37,700 nt of DNA from a virus, in IMG/VR virus record IMGVR_UViG_3300045975_000264, positions 1 through 37,700 of that record. One strand, given 5' to 3'. Each line of letters opens with the position of its first letter. The first letter of the stretch is position 1. The translations under genes were made by a program, and so were the position numbers. Positions 4,701-35,650 of this stretch are shown here, one piece after another. A model generated the notes under the pieces. The model worked only from the letters and a program-made list of their open reading frames with translations, searched no databases and was not told where the DNA came from.

Positions 4701-5835
4701 GCTGTGGCCTTATCGTCCTACTATCGGTACAGCTGAAAGCTTAGAGTGGTTTACCGAGATTTTACGTTCCCGTACGGGAGAGCAGCGGCTTTGTCTTCGT
4801 GAGGTCCCTCGCCAATTTTTCGACTATTCTTCAATCTTAGAAGATCATGAGTTTAGCAGAGCTAAGGCGTTTGCCCGTCGTAATGCTAATTTACCTATTA
4901 AGGTTCCTGTCTGGGTTGAGGTTACTGAGTTGGATTATAGCCTTGCAGCAGTTGACACCACTATAGATTTAGATACAACTACAGCAGATTATCGAGTTGA
5001 TGGGGATCTTATAGTTTGGAGCGATAACTCAAGAGCAATAGCAGCTACAATCTTGGCAATTACTCCAACACAGATTACCTTAACTGAGCCACTTGGCACC
5101 TCATTCAGTGCTCCGGTAGTGGCGCCTGTTCGGTTAGGCCTTGCTATGGATGGTTTCAGTTATACGCGGGAATCTACATTTACTAACGTGGGGGCCAGTT
5201 TCCTAATCATAGATAATGAAAACTTAACCTGGGTAACTGACTACCCACAATACCTTTCCCTTGATGTGATTACTGAAGAGACTGTTGTAGTTTCAGACAT
5301 TAATGAAACAATTATTCGGATAAGTGAATACGTGGATAGTGGTTTCGGTTTAATGGTTCCTGAGGATAAGTCAGATTATAATGACTTTGGTCAGACTCTT
5401 GGTTTCGTAGAGTATGGCGCGGCTGCATTGTGGCGACGTCGAAAATGGTTCTATGGTCTTCGTGGTAAGCAACAAGCCTTTTGGTTGCCTTCATTTAATG
5501 AAGATTTAAGGCTTGCAGAAAATATTACGTCTGGATCTACCTTAATTAAGGTAGATACTATTGGGCCACTTACTAGTTATGTTGGTCAACATATTATGAT
5601 TGAACTTAATAGTGGTGTTCGATACTTTAGGGAAATTGTAAGTGCAGCACAGTTATTTAATGATATAGATCAAATAGTGGTCAATTCAGCAATTAGCGCG
5701 AACATAACTCAGACAGATATTAGGAATTTTAGTTTTCTTAGTAAGGTAAGGCTTAATTCAGACACTGTTCAGTTTGAATACTTAGAGACTGGAATTACTA
5801 CAATAACTGTTCAAATCATGGAAATCCCAGCATGA
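4693..5835 (+). CDS. Distal tail protein (GTA gp12-like), minor tail protein
   Basis: About 380 residues. I prefer the GTG at 4693 (protein beginning MAELWPYRP) because GAGG at 4681-4684 sits 8 bases upstream; it overlaps the tape measure stop by 8 bases, which suggests translational coupling. GTG at 4687 is an alternative. The N-terminal region, with EWFTEILRSRTGEQRLCLRE followed by PRQFFDY, resembles the start of distal/minor tail proteins that accept the tube end and carry hub components. The rest is beta-rich (many short VDTTIDLDTT-like strands). Its place between the tape measure and the hub matches GTA gene order. The exact family is inferred from position and general pattern. Confidence 0.65.
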   Translation: MAELWPYRPTIGTAESLEWFTEILRSRTGEQRLCLREVPRQFFDYSSILEDHEFSRAKAFARRNANLPIKVPVWVEVTELDYSLAAVDTTIDLDTTTADYRVDGDLIVWSDNSRAIAATILAITPTQITLTEPLGTSFSAPVVAPVRLGLAMDGFSYTRESTFTNVGASFLIIDNENLTWVTDYPQYLSLDVITEETVVVSDINETIIRISEYVDSGFGLMVPEDKSDYNDFGQTLGFVEYGAAALWRRRKWFYGLRGKQQAFWLPSFNEDLRLAENITSGSTLIKVDTIGPLTSYVGQHIMIELNSGVRYFREIVSAAQLFNDIDQIVVNSAISANITQTDIRNFSFLSKVRLNSDTVQFEYLETGITTITVQIMEIPA

Positions 5836-6664: not shown

Positions 6665-9600
6665 ATGATCTTTTGGAATATTGTTATAGGCATTGCTTCA
6701 TTTATTCTTAACCTTGTGTTGATGCCAAAGCCGCAAAATGCAAAGGCTTCTTCACTTGATGATGTTGATGCTCCTGTTGCGGAGGAAGGTTGGGAAATCC
6801 CGGTTGTTTTTGGAACTCCCACACTTCGAGGACCTAATGTCGTTTGGTATGGCGACTTTGATGCTGATGCAATCAAAGGTAAACGACGGTATGGGTTCTT
6901 TGGACCGAGGCAAATAATAGGTTATCAGTATCAAATTGGGATGCACCTAGTGCTTTGCCATGGTGTGGCGGATTTTATTCGTAGCATTTGGGTAGGTGAC
7001 AAGGAGGCTTGGGCGCCAGTTAATGCACAGGAGGCTTTGGAACTTCCAGTAAGCATCTATATTGATAAGCCTAATCTTTTTGGCGGTAAGGATAAGGAGG
7101 GAGGTATCTGGGGACAGGTGGATCTTTTAAGTGGTAGTCCTGCACAAGGTCAGAATGACTATCTTGTAGCGAAACTAGGTGCTGGTGCCGATACTCCTGC
7201 ATTCCGAGGCGTTGTAAGTGTTGTTTTACGACGCGGCGGCTCTGATATGAGTGGAATGCATATTGGCACAACAACCTATGTTAAGCCTTGGGATTTTACA
7301 TTAACAAGAATGCATAAAACATCTCAAGGTGCAACTCAATGGTATGATTCCAAGGTTGCGGTACCTGAGACCCCTGGCGGCGGCTTGGCTAATGAACCTG
7401 GGCTCACTTTAAATAGACCAGGTGGTACTGATCATGATATGTTCTCTCGGAACATAACAACTAACAATAACTGGGCTGCCTTGAGTACCACCTCGATACC
7501 TACTGCTGATGGTAGTACTACTAATGGTTTTAGAACTTATGTGTGGGATGTTAGGGATGGCTCTGGACGCTATTTTGATAGTACTGGTAATGTTGGCATA
7601 GGAGGCTATTGCTATATCACTAAAGGTGGCCTCTTAATTACTCGAGGAGGTGGCAATATTTGGGGAACTGGTGACACAACATTATATTGGCGAGACCTTT
7701 CAACCTCTAACATGAATGTAGTTAAAACACAAGCAGTAAGTCCTTATTACTCAGGGCCTGAACTTAATTCCGGTCTTCAAGCATGTGAAATAACTATTGG
7801 TGGCACTACCTATATGTATATGCAGATTTATCCATACATTGCATTTACTGGACCTATCATGTTGTTTGAGAATAATAATCTTGTTGCTTCGGCCCAACCC
7901 AATACCGACATTATTACTGGTTGGGGTTACTCAACCATGGGAACAGTATATGCATATGCAGAAAGTGGCTCTGCTGGCACTCATGTTTCACGTGTTAAGT
8001 GGGTTGATCATTCATTTGAATCAGCTAAGATAAATCCAACAGGAATTAGTGGGGATCTTCATGATACTATCGGGGCCATTGATTATAATCAAGCTACAGA
8101 TGAGGTAGTCATAACTCTAGTTAATGGAAGGATTCTTGTCTACACTCCAGACCTTATGACTTTGAAGCGGAGTGGTAAACCAGCTGGGATGACGGGCTCA
8201 GGGATAAATCAACAAAGAAACCTGACAGATAATATAATTGTAGATGCTAATACTGTAATGATGGTCGATGGTTCTCAATATGCGCCTTCACATGTGGTGG
8301 ATTGGTTCCATTTCGTAAACCTTAATACTTTTGAGATTGAACGAACCATTACTGTAGATTCATCTAGTTATGTCCATCGGGAGGATTCTGCACTCTATAT
8401 GGCCTTCAATGATCTTCATGGTGGTGTCTTTATTAAACGAAGTGGTGGAAACATTAGTTATACTTTATATTGGCCAGTTATCCCTGCTGAAGGGTTGGAT
8501 ATGAATCCATCCCATATTATTCGTGAATGTTTGACGGATCCATTGTGGGGTATGGGTTATACCTCAGCTGATATAGATGATGTCAGCTTTCAGGCGGCGG
8601 CAGATGCTCTTTGGGATGAATGTTTCGGACTTACTTTAGTTTGGGCAAAGGAGGAGCGTATTGAAGATTTCGTCTCTATGGTACTTAGTCATATTGATGC
8701 CTTCCTTTATCTTAAAAGGTCAACAGGTAAGTTTGTTCTTAAGCTTGTAAGAAATGACTATGATATAAACACGATCCCCATAATTAATGAAGATGACGTC
8801 ATTATGTGGGATAATATTGAGCATCGGCAACCCGCTGAGTCCATAAATTCAGTCATTGTAAAGTATACTGATCGTGGTAGCCGCGGTAAAGATGCCTCAC
8901 ACTCATTTGATAATACCGCACAGATAGCGCAACTTGGTGAACGTATTAGCACCACTAGATTTTATCCAGGAATTATGCGAGGTGGCCTTGCAGTTCGTGT
9001 AGCTCAACGTGATCAACGTTCACTAGGTATTGGCATCATTACTGGGCGGATTGTAACCAAGCGAACCGAGATGGAGGAGCTTTATCCCGGCGACCCATTT
9101 AGGCTCGTCTCGAACCGTCATCATCTAGAAGGCCAGGTCTTTCGTGTAATGGATATGCGGCTTGGAGATGGCCGAAGCAATCAGTTACAGGTACGTATTG
9201 CCCAAGACGTATTCAATCTTAATCCTAATGAGCTTGTAGATACTGGCTCAAGTTTATGGCGTCCACCTGACGCCACCCCGCTTCCTGTTACTCAGCGGTT
9301 TGTTTGGGAGATGCCATTCCGTGAGATGGTTCAGTTGATGGGGCCTGCAGACTCAGATGCACTTTTGGCAGCTAAACCAACTGCTGGACTTTTACAGGCT
9401 ACTGGAAGAAAACCTAACCCTGGAGCTACTGACATAGTTATTTATGTAGATGGTGTTGAGGAAGATTCAGCATTCTTTTCACCATTTGGGATCACAACTA
9501 CAGACCTTGCACCACTTGAAGATGAGATTGTAGTCTCTGGCGGTGTGGATCTTGATGATATTGTGCTTGGTAGCCTTGCAGTGATTGCTGATAGTTCTAA

Positions 9601-18277: not shown

Positions 18278-19731
18278 ATCCAATCAGTAATCTTGGTGCC
18301 GAGGACTGCATGAGCTAAAGTTTTCTTCTGCCTTAACAGATAAAGTACCCGCTCGTTAATAGTATCCTTGCTGAAGAAATCTGTATAAACAACTTGGGAG
18401 TCTTGACCAATACGCATGGTTCTATCTTCAGATTGAAGTCGATGTTCTAAGTTATAGCCATTAGAGAAGTAGAAGTTATTCTTACCTGTAGTTAAGGTTC
18501 TACCATAACCAATCGATTGTTGATTAGCAACGATCCAGTAAAGTGGATGTTTAGCATTTTGGAAGTTAGCTATCGTCTCCGCCCGTTCTTCGTCGCTTAC
18601 ACCACCGTAAAAACGACCAACAAACTTGGTGCCGTATTGTTTGCAGAGAAAATCGTAAAGGAACTCGCAGAGTCCTCGATAATTGCACCAAATAATCCCC
18701 TTACCTACAGACTCTTCAAGTTGAGTGACAAGGGCGTCTGGGCGATTACTATCGAGGATCTCAAACCTCCCATCAGGCATTCTTAACTGACCGCAGGCAA
18801 TTTGGTCAAGTCGCGTGATTACGCCAAGTATGTTTGTAGCCTCGATAATCTCCCCATCGCCAAGTTCCACCAAGGCCTCGCGGCGCATCTGTTCATAACA
18901 TTTATACTGTTCATCTGTCAAAGGTACAGAGACCTTCTTATAAATCTTGTCAGGTAAGTCAAGGCACTCAGCCCGGGTCATTACTGTAGCAAAGGTCTTA
19001 AGTTTGTTTTGAAGCATGTCAAGGTTCTTATAACCCTTGATTGCCTTGAAGTGACGTTGTCCGTAGAACTGGACCTCCTCGATGGCATAGGTGCCCTTGA
19101 AGGCATAGAAGCTTTTATGGCCCAAGATGCCCCGACCTAGTACAAGGCACTGACCCCACAGATCCATTGGTGAACGTGTGATAGGTGTACCTGTAAGGAT
19201 TCGACGATACTTTGCAAATTCCGCCAATTGATAAGTAATCTTAGAGCGAATAGCTTTGGGAGACTTTACGCAGGTAGATTCATCCACGACAATCATCATA
19301 CCTTTACGACGTGTCTTAGCAAAGAACCTAGCCACGGTATGACCTTCAGACTTCTCATTCAAGGCCTCTACGTTAACAGCTAAGATTCGGAGCTTATCCT
19401 TGTCGGGAACCATTAACTTGCGTAAAGCTTCTCGCTCGGCTAGACGCATCCCGGACCGATAGTTATGGCACTCGTACTTAACCTGTAGAGGCATATGTTC
19501 TGGAAGCTCGACATCTCGCCAGTTGGAATATTCTCCCTTCTTGGCTAAGATTAGAACAATATCGATCTTGTCCTGAAACCATAGCCAGGCCATCGTGTCG
19601 ATAATAATCTTACTTTTCCCCACTCCCATTTCGCAGAATAAGGCATAATGTAATGTATCTCTACTTTCCTTCCAAATTTTAAGTTGATGTTTATAAGGTT
19701 TATAGACAAAAGGAAAAGTTTCATCAGTCAT
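18274..19731 (-). CDS. SNF2-family DNA helicase / ATPase
   Basis: 485 residues with both helicase lobes. Lobe 1: YKPYKHQLKIW Q-motif-like segment, Walker A EMGVGKSK, Walker B variant VVDESTCVKSP, and motif III ILTGTPITRS. Lobe 2: GIIWCNYRG, RFYGGVSDEERAE, and motifs V-VI in NGYNLEHRLQSEDRTMRIGQ. This is the usual layout of compact phage SNF2-like helicases in replication modules, thought to remodel DNA or protein-DNA complexes at forks. It is the last gene of the leftward operon, and its stop overlaps the stop of the holin candidate on the other strand. The start overlaps the end of the LAGLIDADG gene by 8 bases and has no clear Shine-Dalgarno sequence. Confidence 0.85.
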   Translation of the reverse strand: MTDETFPFVYKPYKHQLKIWKESRDTLHYALFCEMGVGKSKIIIDTMAWLWFQDKIDIVLILAKKGEYSNWRDVELPEHMPLQVKYECHNYRSGMRLAEREALRKLMVPDKDKLRILAVNVEALNEKSEGHTVARFFAKTRRKGMMIVVDESTCVKSPKAIRSKITYQLAEFAKYRRILTGTPITRSPMDLWGQCLVLGRGILGHKSFYAFKGTYAIEEVQFYGQRHFKAIKGYKNLDMLQNKLKTFATVMTRAECLDLPDKIYKKVSVPLTDEQYKCYEQMRREALVELGDGEIIEATNILGVITRLDQIACGQLRMPDGRFEILDSNRPDALVTQLEESVGKGIIWCNYRGLCEFLYDFLCKQYGTKFVGRFYGGVSDEERAETIANFQNAKHPLYWIVANQQSIGYGRTLTTGKNNFYFSNGYNLEHRLQSEDRTMRIGQDSQVVYTDFFSKDTINERVLYLLRQKKTLAHAVLGTKITDWI

Positions 19732-20347
19732 GTGGAGGAATCCAAGATGACGAGTGAGTAAAGTAAGGCATCTTTATAATTGTTTCAGCCTTTTCTCTCT
19801 TATATATTAAAGCAGAATATTCATCTTCATAGAGTATATGGAGGAAAAATTTAGCCTTATTACCTGTTAATGTAATCCTGAATATAGAACTATGTCTTTC
19901 TAAATTGGGTGCTTGACAACCTAAGGTGTTTTCAATAAATTGTTGGCATTTTTCTAAATCATATTTAGGCCCATTAAATCTAACTACAGCCGCTGGTCCA
20001 TGTTGATTAGTCTGAATATTACCATTACCGTCAAGAAGACCACGCCAAAAATGCTTAGACTTGTAAAGAGGTTCATATAACTGAGTCTTGACGCCAAGAT
20101 TATCTAAAATATATCCAACTTTGGCTGAAGATACTACATGATAAGTTACACCACCCCAATTAGTAATTGTAGAGTAAGTTTTTACCTTATTCTTTTTATC
20201 TATATGTTTAGCAAAGGCTTCAACTGCCTCTTTATGTACCTGTGAAAAGACAGCATTTTTATATTTACCTGGCCGTAAAATACAACCATCTGCTCTAAAA
20301 TATCCTATCCAATACTCATCGACTGGAGTCAATGGAAAGTCAAACAT
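19724..20347 (-). CDS. Free-standing LAGLIDADG homing endonuclease, second motif altered
   Basis: 207 residues with two LAGLIDADG-type helices, YWIGYFRADGCI (residues 12-23) and FWRGLLDGNGNI (100-111), each followed by beta-strand segments, so it is a monomeric two-domain enzyme. The catalytic acidic residue is present in the first motif (Asp20), but the second has Asn108 where Asp or Glu is expected. The protein may therefore nick rather than cut, or may have lost activity. It sits as an extra cassette between a small zinc-finger gene and the helicase gene, typical of mobile endonucleases in phage replication regions. AAGGAT lies about 12 bases upstream of ATG. Confidence 0.75.
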   Translation of the reverse strand: MFDFPLTPVDEYWIGYFRADGCILRPGKYKNAVFSQVHKEAVEAFAKHIDKKNKVKTYSTITNWGGVTYHVVSSAKVGYILDNLGVKTQLYEPLYKSKHFWRGLLDGNGNIQTNQHGPAAVVRFNGPKYDLEKCQQFIENTLGCQAPNLERHSSIFRITLTGNKAKFFLHILYEDEYSALIYKREKAETIIKMPYFTHSSSWIPPHD

Positions 20348-20380
20348 AAAATTTAAATCCTTGACATTTTAGGCATATTT

Positions 20381-20605
20381 CTAGTCATTTCGGGGAATTT
20401 TAGTATATAACTTGTCATCCTGTTTTCCTGGAGTATCTAGGCATTCGCCTTCACAGCAATACATGATGCCTGAGCCAAAGCAACCTGGACATGGTTCACT
20501 ATAAGGATGTAATTGTTGACGGTTTAGGAAACTACCATAGACCCGAATATCAGGTATTGATTCAGCGTAGATTTTGCCTTCACCATGACAGATAGAGCAT
20601 CTCAT
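20381..20605 (-). CDS. Small zinc-ribbon protein with DnaJ-type CxxCxGxG motifs
   Basis: 74 residues. Two motifs of the DnaJ central domain type are visible: CSICHGEG near the N-terminus and CPGCFGSG in the middle, together giving four Cys for one zinc, and a further CCEGEC follows. Such mini zinc-binding proteins are common in phages, often of unknown role. I place the start at ATG 20605; a GTG one codon upstream is possible. A GAAAGGTGGTGAGTG leader precedes it, and near-identical leaders stand before the next genes to the right. Confidence 0.65.
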   Translation of the reverse strand: MRCSICHGEGKIYAESIPDIRVYGSFLNRQQLHPYSEPCPGCFGSGIMYCCEGECLDTPGKQDDKLYTKIPRND

Positions 20606-20608
20606 CAC

Positions 20609-21115: not shown

Positions 21116-21952
21116 CTAGAATGGGATCTCTTCAAGATCCTCTTTAGAGTTTCCATCGATCGTTTGACCGCTGTGCTCTTCAAAGGCGGTCTCTTTTCCG
21201 CGAACCACGGCACCTTGTTTAAACTGCTCAGCAAAGTTTTTGGCTGCATGATACTGTTCGATACTTACCGGGTTCTCGAGTCGTTCAATATCCAGATTAG
21301 ACCAGGTGTTGGTATCCTTCGTTTGCTTTATCGTCTTTAAACGATATGGGTAAAGCCAACGAGGAGCCTTTGCGGAGGTGTCTGGAATAAAGGTAGACAT
21401 CAAAGTTTTATTCCAGCGTCTGCTTTTTACAAGCATCGAAGACTTCATTGGGATAATGATCTCTTCCCAACGATTATTATGTGGGTTTTTCATATACACG
21501 TAATGGTAGGCTGTTTCCACGATCATATGACCATTAGGAAGACGTGGCTTACCATTAGCATCTGGCTTGCATTGAGAGAGGATGTTACTCTCGACGCTAT
21601 GATCTTGAACATAGCCGCCGCCATCATCGCGATGGACCCACTCTACTAACTTACGCTCATAAGCGCAAGGGATTACCTCAAGTCCAACTTCGCGGCCATC
21701 AAAGATTTCGTTGGTCACGTTGTTGTAGAACATTCCAGCCTTGGCCCCTTCAATATAGGCCTCAGAGTCTGGGTTGGCCTGTGGAGACAGGGCCTGTAAG
21801 ACGTAGAGATAAGGGACCGCTACATCATCCATACCGAGCTGACTAGTGCCAGCGCCAGCATCTTGCATTACTTCTTTAAGGAAGTCCTCCGACAAAGCTG
21901 CCGGAAGCTGAGTTTCTGCCGGGGCAACAGCCGGCGTTTCTTTGTTTGCCAT
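21116..21952 (-). CDS. Putative ssDNA-binding protein with SSB-type C-terminal tail
   Basis: 278 residues from ATG 21952, with AAGGA seven bases upstream (a Met 20 codons upstream lacks this). The core (about 40-225) is beta-rich with aromatic and basic residues, for example AYHYVYMKNPHNNRWEEIII and KSRRWNKTLMSTF, in the style of phage single-strand-binding proteins. The C-terminus is acidic and ends KEDLEEIPF, closely matching the bacterial SSB tip DDDIPF that recruits replication and repair partners. It belongs to the same leftward unit as the polymerase-proximal nuclease genes. The tail is seen directly; ssDNA binding is inferred. Confidence 0.55.
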   Translation of the reverse strand: MANKETPAVAPAETQLPAALSEDFLKEVMQDAGAGTSQLGMDDVAVPYLYVLQALSPQANPDSEAYIEGAKAGMFYNNVTNEIFDGREVGLEVIPCAYERKLVEWVHRDDGGGYVQDHSVESNILSQCKPDANGKPRLPNGHMIVETAYHYVYMKNPHNNRWEEIIIPMKSSMLVKSRRWNKTLMSTFIPDTSAKAPRWLYPYRLKTIKQTKDTNTWSNLDIERLENPVSIEQYHAAKNFAEQFKQGAVVRGKETAFEEHSGQTIDGNSKEDLEEIPF

Positions 21953-21962
21953 CTCAGGTTCC

Positions 21963-22538
21963 TTACTTCGCTGTGATCGTAAGCTTAGCTTTACGACCGA
22001 TGAAGACGCCAAATAGATCTAATGGAAGAGCGGCGCCGGACTCTACCATCTCACGGACAAACGCTCGTAACGTTTGCCAGTGTACATTTTGACTGAGTTC
22101 AGGTGAAAGCTCAGGCCGCTGTTCATTGAGCCAGGTAACGAACTCTTTAGCGATTTCCAACTCGCCACGGCCAAAGTTCAAGCTGACATCCGTCTTAATG
22201 ATACCTCCATGTTCGTGATCATCGAGCCAGGTATAGGCTTCCTCTCTGCGTTCAGCAGGGATCGAGGCATTATAGAATGAGGAGATGGTAATTTTTGTAC
22301 CATCTTTAAGCTTAAATTCGGACATTCCGACCTCGTCCATAGCCTCAGGTAGATCATGCTGCTCGATACGTTCAAGTTTCTTTTTAAGCTCATCTAGCTC
22401 AAGTTCAGTAACCTTGACAGCTCGTTGAAGTTCAAGCTGTTGGGTGGCTAATTGAGAAATTCTATTTAAGGTACTGTCGCCAACCATGCCAGGAGCTTTG
22501 GACTCTTTTTCAGCAAGTTTAAATACATCAGTCGACAT
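21963..22538 (-). CDS. Conserved-type phage protein of unknown function, coiled coil N-terminus
   Basis: 191 residues from ATG 22538, chosen because GGAGG lies seven bases upstream; the start overlaps the stop of the gene before it. Residues about 22-60 form a coiled coil (LQRAVKVTELELDELKKKLE), followed by DLPEAMDEVGMSEFKLKDGT and a small alpha/beta domain with GGIIKTDVSLNFGRGE. Genes of this look are common next to ssDNA-binding-like genes in phage replication blocks. I do not recognise a catalytic motif. A partner role with the 21116 protein is inferred from adjacency only. Confidence 0.6.
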   Translation of the reverse strand: MSTDVFKLAEKESKAPGMVGDSTLNRISQLATQQLELQRAVKVTELELDELKKKLERIEQHDLPEAMDEVGMSEFKLKDGTKITISSFYNASIPAERREEAYTWLDDHEHGGIIKTDVSLNFGRGELEIAKEFVTWLNEQRPELSPELSQNVHWQTLRAFVREMVESGAALPLDLFGVFIGRKAKLTITAK

Positions 22539-22857
22539 TGAAGTCCTCCACATGAGACTCATCTCTATATGTGATCTTAATGTAGTCATTCTTGAACTTA
22601 TCCCACTTTAATAGGTTCAAGATGCCTAGCTTTTCCCACACGAGAGCCCCAGTTAATGCAATAATTGTTGGGTCCCCCATAAGGAGAATCCAATCACTTT
22701 CAGTCATATCTTGGATGCCGTCGGCGACCTTCTCGGCTAAGTGGGGTGTGGAATAGTTATAGTCGCCTGGAGGTAACAATACCTTAATGTTGCCAAACTT
22801 TAAAGCTTGACTAAGGTCTCTTCCCATTACCTCTTGAGTTACATAAACTTTTGCCAT
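22528..22857 (-). CDS. Unknown phage protein, first gene of a promoter-led unit
   Basis: 109 residues, with a GGAAGAGAG leader before ATG. It begins MAKVYVTQEVMGRDLSQALKF and has a middle block WILLMGDPTIIALTGALVWE that recurs in phage proteins of unknown function. No signal peptide or metal site is seen. It is the first gene downstream of the promoter at 22882-22910 and probably shares a transcript with the coiled-coil and ssDNA-binding-like genes. Confidence 0.6.
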   Translation of the reverse strand: MAKVYVTQEVMGRDLSQALKFGNIKVLLPPGDYNYSTPHLAEKVADGIQDMTESDWILLMGDPTIIALTGALVWEKLGILNLLKWDKFKNDYIKITYRDESHVEDFNVD

Positions 22858-31377: not shown

Positions 31378-31796
31378 TCTCCGAACTCCGCAACAAATAA
31401 CAGAGAAAATATTCCAAGCTTAATTGAAGGGTCTCGTCTCATTTCCTCCCTAGCATACTCCCTAGCTACAACTAAAGACTTATCTGCAAAGAGAATAAGA
31501 TCAAGGTTAAACTTGTCAGGGTTTAATCGAGGGTTATCTGAAATGTCAAAGACGATGTAAAGAGTCGTTGGTTCCCATGGAATGAAGCTCTCAGCCAAGT
31601 AGGAAAAGTGCAAGGTATCTTCTAACTTTACCCTAACCTCGATTAGCCACTTGCGCTGAGTCCTATTCCACGTTACTTTAGTAACGACTAAGCGATCCCC
31701 ATGCTTTAACAGCGGGGTATCAGCCTGAACGTAGGTAACTAGATCCCCTACCTTATAGGGAGGTTTACCTGGGAAGTCGGATAAATTTTTTGCCAT
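31374..31796 (-). CDS. Unknown early protein with SH3-like N-terminus
   Basis: 140 residues, first gene of the leftward early operon. Residues about 12-70 (YKVGDLVTYVQADTPLLKHG, then RLVVTKVTW) look like a small beta-barrel of the SH3 or KOW sort. The rest is mixed, with a DKFNLDLILFADKSLVVARE block. It follows the promoter at 31824-31852 by about 25 bases, and GTGGGAAC precedes ATG. First genes of early operons often encode host-directed proteins; that is inference. Confidence 0.6.
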   Translation of the reverse strand: MAKNLSDFPGKPPYKVGDLVTYVQADTPLLKHGDRLVVTKVTWNRTQRKWLIEVRVKLEDTLHFSYLAESFIPWEPTTLYIVFDISDNPRLNPDKFNLDLILFADKSLVVAREYAREEMRRDPSIKLGIFSLLFVAEFGE

Positions 31797-31823
31797 ATGT
31801 TCCCACTACAGGAGCTTTATAAC

Positions 31824-31852
31824 ATTATATCATAAAATTGGGTGAAAATAAA
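31824..31852 (-). promoter_or_regulatory. Leftward early promoter
   Basis: On the minus strand TTTATT (31852-31847), 17 bases, TATAAT (31829-31824). It would start transcription near 31817 and drive the 31796 gene and those after it. Confidence 0.75.
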
Positions 31853-31905
31853 TTGGCTACTTAACGTGTACATATTGGCCATTATGACCTATATATAGTA
31901 TAGAT

Positions 31906-32231
31906 GGACGTGGGCCTGAGTGATCCGCCCACACCGAAAGGCTCATATTGAAGGTGTGGCCGTCCTCAAACTTGAAATCGAAACGGAGAGGCTGTGCACA
32001 GGGGTTAGTGGAAGAGCCTCTCCGTTCGACCTATCTAATAAATGGACGGGGCGCATCCATCTACTAAATATCTTGCATACTAGAAGGCTGACCCCATTTA
32101 CTATCAAGCCGAGGGAATCAGGCTTGATACGGGGGTTTGGGGGTAGTAGGCAACTAAATGAGGCCAGCCTGTGGTGAGTCGAACCGCGAAAAGTTCATCA
32201 CCACCTCATGATTATGTCACGGATTTTTCGC
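31906..32231 (+). ncRNA. Candidate structured RNA of unknown class
   Basis: A chain of perfect inverted repeats fills this gene-free region. GGACG 31906/CGTCC 31961 encloses two hairpins (TGGGC 31911/GCCCA 31927; CACC 31932/GGTG 31953). Then a 12-bp stem AACGGAGAGGCT 31982-31993/AGCCTCTCCGTT 32015-32026; ATGGA 32042/TCCAT 32056; a long interrupted stem of GGCTG 32086/CAGCC 32165, CATTTA 32095/TAAATG 32155 and TATCAAGCC 32102/GGCTTGATA 32121; and GTGGTGA 32171/TCACCAC 32198 with inner GAAC/GTTC. The loop GCGAAAA (32186-32192) can pair with TTTTCGC (32225-32231), a possible pseudoknot. TATAGT at 31894-31899 would start transcription near 31906, although no good -35 is seen. Strand is inferred; an origin or cruciform DNA is the alternative. 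Confidence 0.5.
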
Positions 32232-32249
32232 ATTGTACACCTAAAAATG

Positions 32250-32328
32250 CAAGGCTGCCTTGTCTCTAGGATCTCCAGGAAAATTGGATGATAGACTTTA
32301 TATAAAAAGTCCCTGGAATGACTCAGGG
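32250..32328. repeat. Further hairpins downstream of the candidate RNA
   Basis: CAAGG-CTG-CCTTG (32250-32262); a nested pair TCCAGG 32274/CCTGGA 32312 around GACTTT 32294/AAAGTC 32306; and CCCTG 32311/CAGGG 32324, an alternative to the previous stem. They continue the inverted-repeat character of the region and could be part of the same RNA or a replication origin. Confidence 0.4.
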
Positions 32329-32354
32329 TATGCCCATTTTGTCAAGGAATAACA

Positions 32355-32381
32355 CCGAAGACCATTGTCTTTGGCCATTTT
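32355..32381 (+). terminator. Stem-loop with T-run, terminator-like
   Basis: CCGAAGAC (32355-32362), loop CATT, GTCTTTGG (32367-32374): eight pairs including one G-U, followed by CCATTTT. In the + direction this is a plausible intrinsic terminator that would end the candidate RNA before the rightward promoter at 32454. Confidence 0.5.
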
Positions 32382-32407
32382 AACTCAGGTCAATTATGTT
32401 GGCTATA

Positions 32408-32427
32408 TGACGGTTACGTGACGGTCA
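32408..32427. promoter_or_regulatory. Imperfect 20-bp dyad, operator candidate
   Basis: TGACGGTTACGTGACGGTCA matches its own reverse complement at 16 of 20 positions, centred on ACGT, and also contains TGACGGT twice as a direct repeat. It lies 26 bases upstream of the -35 at 32454, a position suited to an activator or a looping repressor; the HTH protein at 28078-28413 is one possible ligand. Confidence 0.4.
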
Positions 32428-32453
32428 TGTTACCGCCAGTGTCACTTTGCCGA

Positions 32454-32482
32454 TTTACATTTAAATCAAAACAGGATACAAT
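32454..32482 (+). promoter_or_regulatory. Rightward early promoter
   Basis: TTTACA (32454-32459), 17 bases, TACAAT (32477-32482). Preceded by CCGA, as in the promoter at 36629. It drives the 32521 gene and the primase-helicase. Confidence 0.85.
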
Positions 32483-32520
32483 ATTTAAGTAATACGAAAA
32501 TTTAACAGAGAGACAGAGCG

Positions 32521-33213: not shown

Positions 33214-33224
33214 TTGGCAGGGTG

Positions 33225-35414
33225 ATGGCACAAATAACAGCTGAGGAAATCGCAAGGGCATTAGGGCAAGGTAAAGAGTCGAGGGGTAGCGGCAATAGTT
33301 GGAAGACGATGTGTCCATCACATCGTGACGAGCACCCATCTTTATCTGTTAGCGATGTTCATGGCAAGGTCCTTGTTCGTTGTCATGCTGGCTGTACCCA
33401 AGAAAAAGTAATCGAAGATCTTAAGCTTCTTAATCTGTGGCCCCGTTCTGAATTCGAGGGTCGCGCATCTTGGGAGTCTATCATTCCTGTACCTTATGGT
33501 GTACAGAGACCAAAGGAGTTCGTTCACTTTAAACACGGCATACCCTCAAAGGTTTGGGAGTATCGTGATCTTGAAAATCGGCTGTTAGGATTTATCTGCC
33601 GTTTTAATAAGAAAGATGGCGGTAAGGAAATTATTCCGCATACTTATTGCCAATCAGATAAGGGTGAGCAAAAGTGGTATTGGAAATTGTGGCCGAAGCC
33701 ACGACCACTTTATAATCTTCACAGGCTTAAAGATTGGGAAGGCCCGATCATTATCTTTGAAGGTGAAAAGGCTGTAGATGCCGGTCAAAAGATCTTTGGT
33801 GCGACGCATCTTTGTATGACTTGGCCAAGTGGTGCCAAGAATGTAAAGGCAGCTGACTTTGATGTCTTAAATCAGCGTGAGGTCATATTATGGCCAGATG
33901 CTGACAAGCCTGGCATCCAAGCTATGAAGGAAGCTGCCGAGATTCTTCTTACCATAGCAAAGAAAATCCAGATAGTAACTATTCCTGAAAATCTTCCTGA
34001 AGGTTGGGATGTGGCTGATCCTTTACCTGAAGGCTTAGATCATCAGAAAATGTTGAGGGATACCTATGACTTCGAACCTGATAGTAAAGGAATCATCGAA
34101 GAATTTAATAAAAAGTATGCAGTTGCCATGGTTGGTGGCTCAACTGTTATACTTAAAGAGGAAATTGATGAGGAAGGAAAAATTTTACTTATTCAAATAT
34201 CTCCTAACTCTTTTCATCAATTCCATAATAATAAATTTACCCAAGTTGGTAAACAACAGATGCCAACATCTAAATATTGGATGACACATGAGGATCGAAA
34301 AACCTATGAACGTATTATCTTTAAGCCTGAATTTAAAGGTTCATTGAATGGATCCTACAATCTTTGGCGTGGATTTAGTGTTGAGCCTGATAATACAGGT
34401 GACTGGAGCATCTTCAAAGACCACTTACTTAACAATATTTGTCGAGGAGATAAGGAACTTTATGATTGGGTCTTTGGCTGGTTTGCTCACATCTTTCAAC
34501 ATCCTGGTCATAAGTCAGGTACAAGTTTAGCATTACGTGGTCGTCAGGGTGTTGGTAAGACGATTGTTGGAAAGATCTTTGGTAGATTAATCCAACATCA
34601 TTATACTTTAGTAGATGAACCCAGACAAGTGTTGGGTCAATTTAATGCCCATTTGGCTTCAACTATCTTATTGCATGCTGATGAGGCTTTCTTTGGTGGA
34701 GATCCCCGACATGTTGGTAAGTTAAAGTCAATGGTTACCTCCGATACTCAACGTATTGAAAACAAGGGAAAGGATAGCTACGAAGTAGATAATTATCTTC
34801 GTCTATTAATTACGAGTAACCAAGACTGGATTGTTCCTGCAGGGTTTGAGGAGCGTCGGTTTGCTGTACTTGACGTTGGTGATGACCAACGTCAAAATGA
34901 AAAATACTTCAGTCAAATGACTAAGCAGATGAAGTCTGGTGGTTATGGTGGATTATTGTATGATTTGCTAAATTATGAACTTGGCATGGTAAACATATAT
35001 AAGATTCCAATGACTAAAGCTTTACGGGATCAAAAAGAGTTGTCGATGTCGCCAATCTATAAATTTTGGCTTACCTGTCTTATGAATGGTGAGATCTCAC
35101 CTGCAGATCATGGAGAGTGGCCTAGTGAGATAATCAGTCAAACCTTCTATGAGATGTTTCTAACATATGCTAGGTCACTGAATATAAGGCACATACCTAC
35201 CCAGAATGAGTTTTTCAGGGACATTAAGAAGGCAGCCCCAGAGGATGAGATTAAACGAATTCGTGGAAAATTCGTCAACGGCTATCGACCTTGGGCTTAT
35301 CGACTTCCGACACTTGTCAAGGCAAGAAAATACTTCGATCAGATGAATGGTCACGCACAAGATTGGCCAGAAGAGGGAAATAGCAGCCAAGTAGAGGATG
35401 AGATCCCCTTCTAG
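33225..35414 (+). CDS. Primase-helicase: CHC2-type zinc finger, TOPRIM and SF3-like ATPase
   Basis: 729 residues from ATG 33225 (a GTG precedes it; numbering below counts that GTG as 1). N-terminal zinc site CPSHRDEHPSLSV and VRCHAGC (Cys31, His34, Cys54, Cys58). TOPRIM: IFEGEKAVDAG (Glu180) and LWPDADKPG (Asp226, Asp228). C-terminal helicase of the DUF5906/SF3 type: YNLWRGFSVEP entry motif, Walker A GRQGVGKT (440-447), Walker B LLHADEAFF (Asp487, Glu488), sensor LLITSNQDW and arginine-finger region FEERRFAVLD. It makes primers and unwinds the fork. The last residues, VEDEIPF, mimic the SSB C-terminal tip. Confidence 0.9.
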   Translation: MAQITAEEIARALGQGKESRGSGNSWKTMCPSHRDEHPSLSVSDVHGKVLVRCHAGCTQEKVIEDLKLLNLWPRSEFEGRASWESIIPVPYGVQRPKEFVHFKHGIPSKVWEYRDLENRLLGFICRFNKKDGGKEIIPHTYCQSDKGEQKWYWKLWPKPRPLYNLHRLKDWEGPIIIFEGEKAVDAGQKIFGATHLCMTWPSGAKNVKAADFDVLNQREVILWPDADKPGIQAMKEAAEILLTIAKKIQIVTIPENLPEGWDVADPLPEGLDHQKMLRDTYDFEPDSKGIIEEFNKKYAVAMVGGSTVILKEEIDEEGKILLIQISPNSFHQFHNNKFTQVGKQQMPTSKYWMTHEDRKTYERIIFKPEFKGSLNGSYNLWRGFSVEPDNTGDWSIFKDHLLNNICRGDKELYDWVFGWFAHIFQHPGHKSGTSLALRGRQGVGKTIVGKIFGRLIQHHYTLVDEPRQVLGQFNAHLASTILLHADEAFFGGDPRHVGKLKSMVTSDTQRIENKGKDSYEVDNYLRLLITSNQDWIVPAGFEERRFAVLDVGDDQRQNEKYFSQMTKQMKSGGYGGLLYDLLNYELGMVNIYKIPMTKALRDQKELSMSPIYKFWLTCLMNGEISPADHGEWPSEIISQTFYEMFLTYARSLNIRHIPTQNEFFRDIKKAAPEDEIKRIRGKFVNGYRPWAYRLPTLVKARKYFDQMNGHAQDWPEEGNSSQVEDEIPF

Positions 35415-35420
35415 GTAAAA

Positions 35421-35445
35421 GCACCCCGGTTCAAGGCCGGGGTGC
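35421..35445. terminator. Terminator between convergent genes
   Basis: Perfect 9-bp stem GCACCCCGG (35421-35429)/CCGGGGTGC (35437-35445), seven-base loop. On the minus strand it is followed by TTTTACC, so it best terminates the 35453 gene; on the + strand there is no T-run, but it may still stop or protect primase transcripts. Confidence 0.8.
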
Positions 35446-35452
35446 CTGAGAG

Positions 35453-35650
35453 TTAACTTGCATACTTCTCGATGACGGCATCTCGGCCGAGTTTTCGATA
35501 TTCATTATAGATCTCTCGCGGATTTAATTTCTGCTCGAGGACATTTTGCCGAATAATCTTAGGCAAGGCATTCCGGTACATTGCAGCCTTGTCCTCTGTC
35601 ATGAACTTCTGCCACGGTGCCGTTTGCCTTATAGCTAGTTTCTTGGCCAT
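35453..35650 (-). CDS. Small basic protein of unknown function
   Basis: 65 residues with AAGGA eight bases before ATG, the only leftward gene inside the right arm. Basic and helical: MAKKLAIRQTAPWQKFMTED, then LPKIIRQNVLEQKLNPREIY and GRDAVIEKYAS, which could form a small DNA-binding helix bundle. It has its own promoter (35695-35723) and terminator, so it is an independent unit, perhaps a regulator or a moron-like gene. Confidence 0.6.
   Translation of the reverse strand: MAKKLAIRQTAPWQKFMTEDKAAMYRNALPKIIRQNVLEQKLNPREIYNEYRKLGRDAVIEKYAS

Follow-up and report, generated by a model that had tools for sequence, protein, structure and literature searches.

The window analyzed here is the whole 37.7-kb stretch (positions 1–37,700) of IMG/VR record IMGVR_UViG_3300045975_000264 from an uncultivated phage; it is linear, and no terminal repeats were found in it. 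Tail genes are read rightward over its first part (1–18.3 kb), and a block of replication and nucleotide metabolism genes is read leftward from 31.8 to 18.3 kb (an operon of ~13 kb, from the first gene at 31796 down to 18274), including those for an SNF2-type helicase, DNA polymerase A, dCMP deaminase, a thymidylate-synthase-like protein, a methyltransferase and an exonuclease. Three neighboring genes of this block (21116–22857, minus strand) match the Pfam families of gp32–gp34 of cyanophage Pam3, and gene 21116 has frequent homologues in Pseudomonas phages and others. The rightward block on the other side opens with gene 32521, of unknown family, followed by a DUF5906 primase gene starting at 33222. 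Between the two divergent blocks lies a 724-bp gap (31797–32520), the largest of the record (the runner-up measures 453 bp), in agreement with the large gene-free region noted in a preliminary description of this DNA. The region shows no coding signal, since its sole open reading frame of at least 60 amino acids (31920–32177, plus strand) has a GTG start and no evident ribosome binding site and is located on the strand opposite to the RNA described below. The promoter of gene 32521 is found at 32454–32482 on the plus strand (TTTACA-17-TACAAT), and the closest relatives of the window, loci L003 and L004 (~40–50% protein identity), carry TTTACT-17-TATAAT at the matching position.

Part of the gap (32182–32355, plus strand) is by sequence similarity a decayed partial copy, with two in-frame stops, of the zinc-ribbon-like gene 20381–20608 (minus strand). 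The source stretch is 20351–20608 (minus strand), the copy also spanning the spacer and the RBS-like CAAGGA that precede the LAGLIDADG endonuclease gene 19724–20347 (minus strand). The similarity to this cassette ends near the start of the first RNA helix (helix A, see below), indicating that the gap has seen gene turnover. Two copies of the LAGLIDADG endonuclease family were seen in one of the related loci (L007).

The preliminary description had reported a dense run of inverted repeats in the gap, and this was borne out: arms with 12/12, 9/9, 14/16 and 9/10 matches are present, and the region folds more stably than shuffled sequences of preserved dinucleotide composition. The excess of structure is far beyond chance and depends on the strand. 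The minus strand from 32204 to 31909 folds at −122.5 kcal/mol, compared with a mean of −83.6 (sd 5.0) and a best value of −107.4 kcal/mol among 2000 dinucleotide shuffles, none of which was as stable (z = −7.7). For the plus strand of the same region, the corresponding values are −109.3 versus −91.0 kcal/mol (sd 5.2; z = −3.5). The minus strand is thus better by 13.2 kcal/mol, whereas the shuffles predict it to be worse by 7.4 ± 5.0 kcal/mol, which places the strand difference ~4 sd off expectation. Likewise, the minus fold contains 12 G-U pairs, a comparison of both strands over one stretch gave 13 in the minus versus 2 in the plus fold, and a strand-neutral stem finder that scores G-U and A-C alike returned 7 G-U but 0 A-C pairs in the six stems of the fold, an asymmetry that fits a transcribed RNA, unlike DNA hairpins. 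When 200-nt windows across the record are ranked by composition-corrected folding energy, the top two both fall in this region. On the basis of z-scores and wobble counts, we rejected a plus-strand RNA; the structured RNA is almost certainly read from the minus strand, opposite to the strand considered in the preliminary description. Its proposal of a new phage non-coding RNA is partly upheld: the structure excess and the wobble asymmetry support it well, but with the strand reversed. A strand-specific excess of structure in a non-coding gap, as seen here, is expected of a phage-encoded structured non-coding RNA.

The predicted minus-strand fold (31909–32204, 98 pairs) consists of five hairpins in a row, A to E, almost without linkers and one of them with a nested hairpin; mean pair probabilities for the five helices and the nested one are 0.91–0.98. 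Helix A (32171–32204; 13 pairs, GUGGUGAUGAACU / GGUUCGACUCACCAC) begins with the predicted +1 nucleotide. Helix B (32085–32170; 16 pairs), evident as an inverted repeat and in the predicted fold, begins at the base following helix A, carries the C-rich loop CUACUACCCCCAAACCCCCG and encloses the nested hairpin of 11 pairs (32129–32102). A 14-nt linker (32071–32084, UCUAGUAUGCAAGA) leads to helix C (32032–32070; 17 pairs, 4 of them G-U), found in the predicted fold and by the stem search. Helix D (31976–32031; 17 pairs, loop CUUCCACUAACCCCUGUGCAC), again both an inverted repeat and a predicted helix, begins at the base after helix C, and helix E (31914–31971; 18 pairs, loop UUCAAUAUGAGCCUUUC) is predicted to complete the array. 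The A/B (32171/32170) and C/D (32032/32031) borders abut with zero unpaired bases. The three-way junction and the stem of three matched segments described earlier do not occur in this high-probability fold.

The loop segment UUGCCUACUA of helix B (32153–32144) is complementary to nucleotides 32082–32073 of the B–C linker (UAGUAUGCAA) in 9 of 10 positions. The calculated duplex stability of −8.5 kcal/mol corresponds to p = 0.022 in 2000 shuffles, a value not adjusted for how many loop pairs were compared. This pairing would represent a possible, as yet hypothetical, H-type pseudoknot. On the minus strand, we consider it more plausible than the pseudoknot suggested before between GCGAAAA (32186–32192) and TTTTCGC (32225–32231): both of these segments are present and can pair on either strand, but in the minus orientation the inferred start site would leave one half outside the transcript, on its upstream side.

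A motif scan placed a promoter-like site with a TG-extended −10 element (TGTACA-17-CATAAT; 32211–32239, minus strand) such that it stops 7 nt short of helix A, predicting a +1 position at ~32204. As chance alone would yield almost as many such sites (4 found in the region versus 2.5 expected), this promoter is suggestive only. A second extended −10 element, TGATATAAT (31824–31832, minus strand), fits the pattern TGnTAWAAT, which occurs only twice in the window, and probably belongs to a separate promoter of the leftward operon. The TATAGT hexamer (31894–31899) previously considered as an upstream element is on the plus side and beyond the 3’-end of the minus-strand RNA, making it irrelevant here. 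Past helix E, no intrinsic terminator stands out clearly; terminator-like stems further downstream, as postulated earlier, do exist (4 versus 1.1 ± 1.0 expected by chance), but they are weak and only somewhat more numerous than expected.

The covariance search against Rfam proposed in the preliminary description revealed no known family. With Rfam 15 at gathering scores, the whole window gave zero matches, including GOLLD, ROOL, tmRNA, RNase P, riboswitches and group I introns, and at E ≤ 5 we obtained merely three weak matches to eukaryotic lncRNAs/snoRNAs, none within helices A to E. ARAGORN likewise identified 0 tRNA or tmRNA genes in the window, in line with the initial impression that no tRNA, tmRNA, RNase P or riboswitch is recognizable. 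Homologues of the RNA were then sought in ~130 related phage loci from IMG/VR, gathered through two neighboring proteins (47 loci in the A1 scan, 80 in the A4 [methyltransferase] scan), and in two deposited phage genomes from Manatee Spring (MW202510.1 and MW202898.1). BLASTN, nhmmer and covariance model searches detected none in this collection, BLASTN of the region against phage records returned nothing, and no second copy exists in the record; one of the empty searches is weak by itself, its tool having run without a positive control. In L003 and L004, only ~110 bp precede the matching gene, and no comparable structure was found there.

Several candidates were discarded. Exact 15–16-mers are shared with other records, the clearest being a 16-nt match in G016 and G017 that sits within a 508-aa reading frame. 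Scanning viral and genome contigs for the stem pattern yielded either no matches or matches that showed no further resemblance to the RNA or the window proteins. A covariance model built from the window RNA as single sequence (R2) gave a single, marginal match (L108, 4946–5179; 15.7 bits, E 0.05); this cluster of hairpins begins 8 nt past a stop codon, folds equally well on both strands (z-scores of −4.56 and −4.64), and was judged a chance hit. Adding it to the model brought up no third member. With no homologue found, the window RNA is an orphan. On inspection, other strongly folding windows in the relatives resembled terminators, coding sequence or arrays of repeats, the exceptions being among the features described below. 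These include a gene-free, repeat-rich and very strongly folding segment in the record of L003 (L071, 15500–16050; about 35100–35650 of G001), which holds GCTACCTGC / CAGCAGG repeats and a 22-bp hairpin, and a terminator followed by a branched hairpin (GAAGACTTCG...AGAGGACTCC / GGAGTCCTCT...CGAAGTCTTC) upstream of a methyltransferase gene (L117, 2550–2790, plus strand). L108 has tandem repeats of GTGGCCAAGTGAGCCACTCCC at 5240–5340, in the gap downstream of its gene-35868 homologue.

A separate RNA family, termed R1, emerged in the related phages. It comprises covarying RNAs of ~200 nt, read from the minus strand in divergent gaps that precede a gene with a domain in common with gene 32521. Four members (L031, 3970–4160; L047, 3636–3835; L034, 3104–3330; L045, 3561–3755) are joined by three more distant ones (L035, 1936–2115; L040, 973–1205; and L032, at 8256–8483 of its record L094), all on the minus strand. 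They share the core motifs UAGAAG...UGACA...UGGCG...UGUUCGUAG and CUGGUGAGCAG and a fold with a long basal stem, an asymmetric internal loop and a three-way junction. When the family was aligned to a model built from four of its members (eight distinct rows, including one weak reverse-strand match), 94.8% of the cells were paired, and in 44 of 57 pairs both sides had changed; none of 500 shuffles reached this, and slid controls were 37–47% paired. The strand is fixed by 24 G-U versus 0 A-C cells in the seven true members. R1 is absent from Rfam, and BLASTN with one member against 50,697 phage records gave nothing.

Beside all seven R1 members lies a divergent gene for a small protein of ~95 aa (GFKNLTI...DDDKFxVY...EFWxRWxxFIKRAF), located on the plus strand at L149 (2698–2985), L135 (2344–2640), L139 (2519–2923), L177 (3160–3489), L176 (877–1134), L119 (1185–1565) and L094 (8450–8860). 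Among the loci fetched, an HMM of this protein matches R1 loci only and has no match in the window; the family has no match in PHROG. In several members, the ATGAAAA-like start codon region of the small gene is visibly inside the R1 basal stem. R1 and the small gene are candidates for an RNA–protein pair or an antisense-controlled gene, and the tie of the family to one small protein makes the role of divergent-gap RNAs in these phages directly testable. Like R1, the window RNA is a structured RNA outside Rfam, encoded in a divergent gap and opposite to the rightward gene; it differs from R1 in its fold and in lacking the specific small gene that R1 adjoins. We rejected its membership in R1, as the best match with filters off scored 6.4 bits and fell on an AT-rich spot outside the structure.

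In our view, the best reading, though an evenly poised one, is that the minus strand of the region gives rise to a structured non-coding RNA of ~300 nt that is transcribed independently. Its synthesis would start near 32204 at the extended −10 promoter and proceed leftward; the RNA would fold into the five nearly contiguous hairpins, with A/B and C/D able to stack coaxially and the array possibly tied together by the pseudoknot of B loop and B–C linker. The 3’-end might be generated by termination or cleavage between helix E (31914) and the operon promoter (31832). In the infected cell, the compact RNA would most likely bind a protein of the phage or of its host, with the C-rich single-stranded loops as the likeliest contact sites. 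This reading is favored by the placement of the promoter-like site at helix A, by the second extended −10 element before the operon, and by the precedent of seven related phages, in which R1 likewise occupies a divergent gap ahead of a rightward gene block and is read from the minus strand. Counted against it are the lack of a homologue, L003 and L004 included, a promoter barely above chance and the missing clear terminator after helix E.

The latter point makes a structured 5’-leader of the 13-kb leftward operon (31796 to 18274) the main rival and our second choice, a possible though somewhat unlikely explanation. Leader RNAs often control long phage operons, as exemplified by HK022 put and lambda nut, and the RNA is on the same strand, with helix E ending ~118 nt upstream of the first start codon of the operon and no strong terminator between. 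It could thus control elongation (by antitermination or attenuation), mRNA stability or translation. However, TGATATAAT intervenes between RNA and gene, five hairpins over 300 nt far exceed the needs of put or nut, and in L003, L004 or the other relatives neither BLAST nor nhmmer nor a covariance model revealed a leader of this kind. A function at the DNA level, such as replication-origin hairpins or a primosome-assembly site, would suit a location between divergent operons and close to the primase gene, as well as the turn of the cumulative GC skew at about 31.5 kb, the point of divergence. Yet this turn merely tracks gene strand, and neither the G-U asymmetry, which renders this idea less likely, nor the strand difference would be expected for DNA hairpins; we consider it improbable. 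Equally improbable is a mobile structured element (an intron, a MITE-like element or a retron-like RNA) that inserted into the copy of the zinc-ribbon/endonuclease cassette or replaced its 5’-half. In its favor, the cassette similarity on the right flank breaks off at about helix A, the intact cassette copy adjoins the LAGLIDADG endonuclease, and an imperfect inverted repeat (31861–31872 and 32234–32245; 10/12, possibly by chance) brackets the RNA; but no intron or retron family matched even at E ≤ 5, the scanned window proteins include no reverse transcriptase or transposase, the missing 5’-half of the cassette is unrecognizable on the other side of the RNA, and the RNA is single-copy in the record. 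That the structure arose by chance or lacks function would fit its orphan status but is in our opinion very improbable, as the shuffling statistics and the location of the two strongest folding windows speak against it.

Returning to the stand-alone RNA, we tentatively suggest that it could represent a new class of ~300-nt phage RNAs with five coaxially stackable hairpins and a pseudoknot, expressed from a divergent replication/primase control region. It may then be one of several unrelated divergent-gap RNAs kept by this environmental phage group, each acting as a small RNA machine in infection. Among known systems, the antiterminator put of HK022 similarly places hairpins upstream of a long phage operon, but put sites are about 70 nt long with two hairpins, whereas the window has five over 300 nt and apparently a separate promoter for the operon. 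ROOL RNAs measure about 500–600 nt. Many GOLLD members exceed 800 nt, and both families often occur near tRNA islands (PMC12286853). The resemblance in style to GOLLD and ROOL that was pointed out initially holds insofar as the window RNA is likewise phage-encoded, highly structured, non-coding and without assigned function; at ~300 nt, it is smaller than the size of more than about 500 nt typical of these RNAs, it has no tRNA in its neighborhood or elsewhere in the window, and neither Rfam model matches it. Phages are credited with only a few large structured RNAs, most of them still lacking an explanation, and the window RNA, if transcribed, adds to them one that Rfam does not describe.
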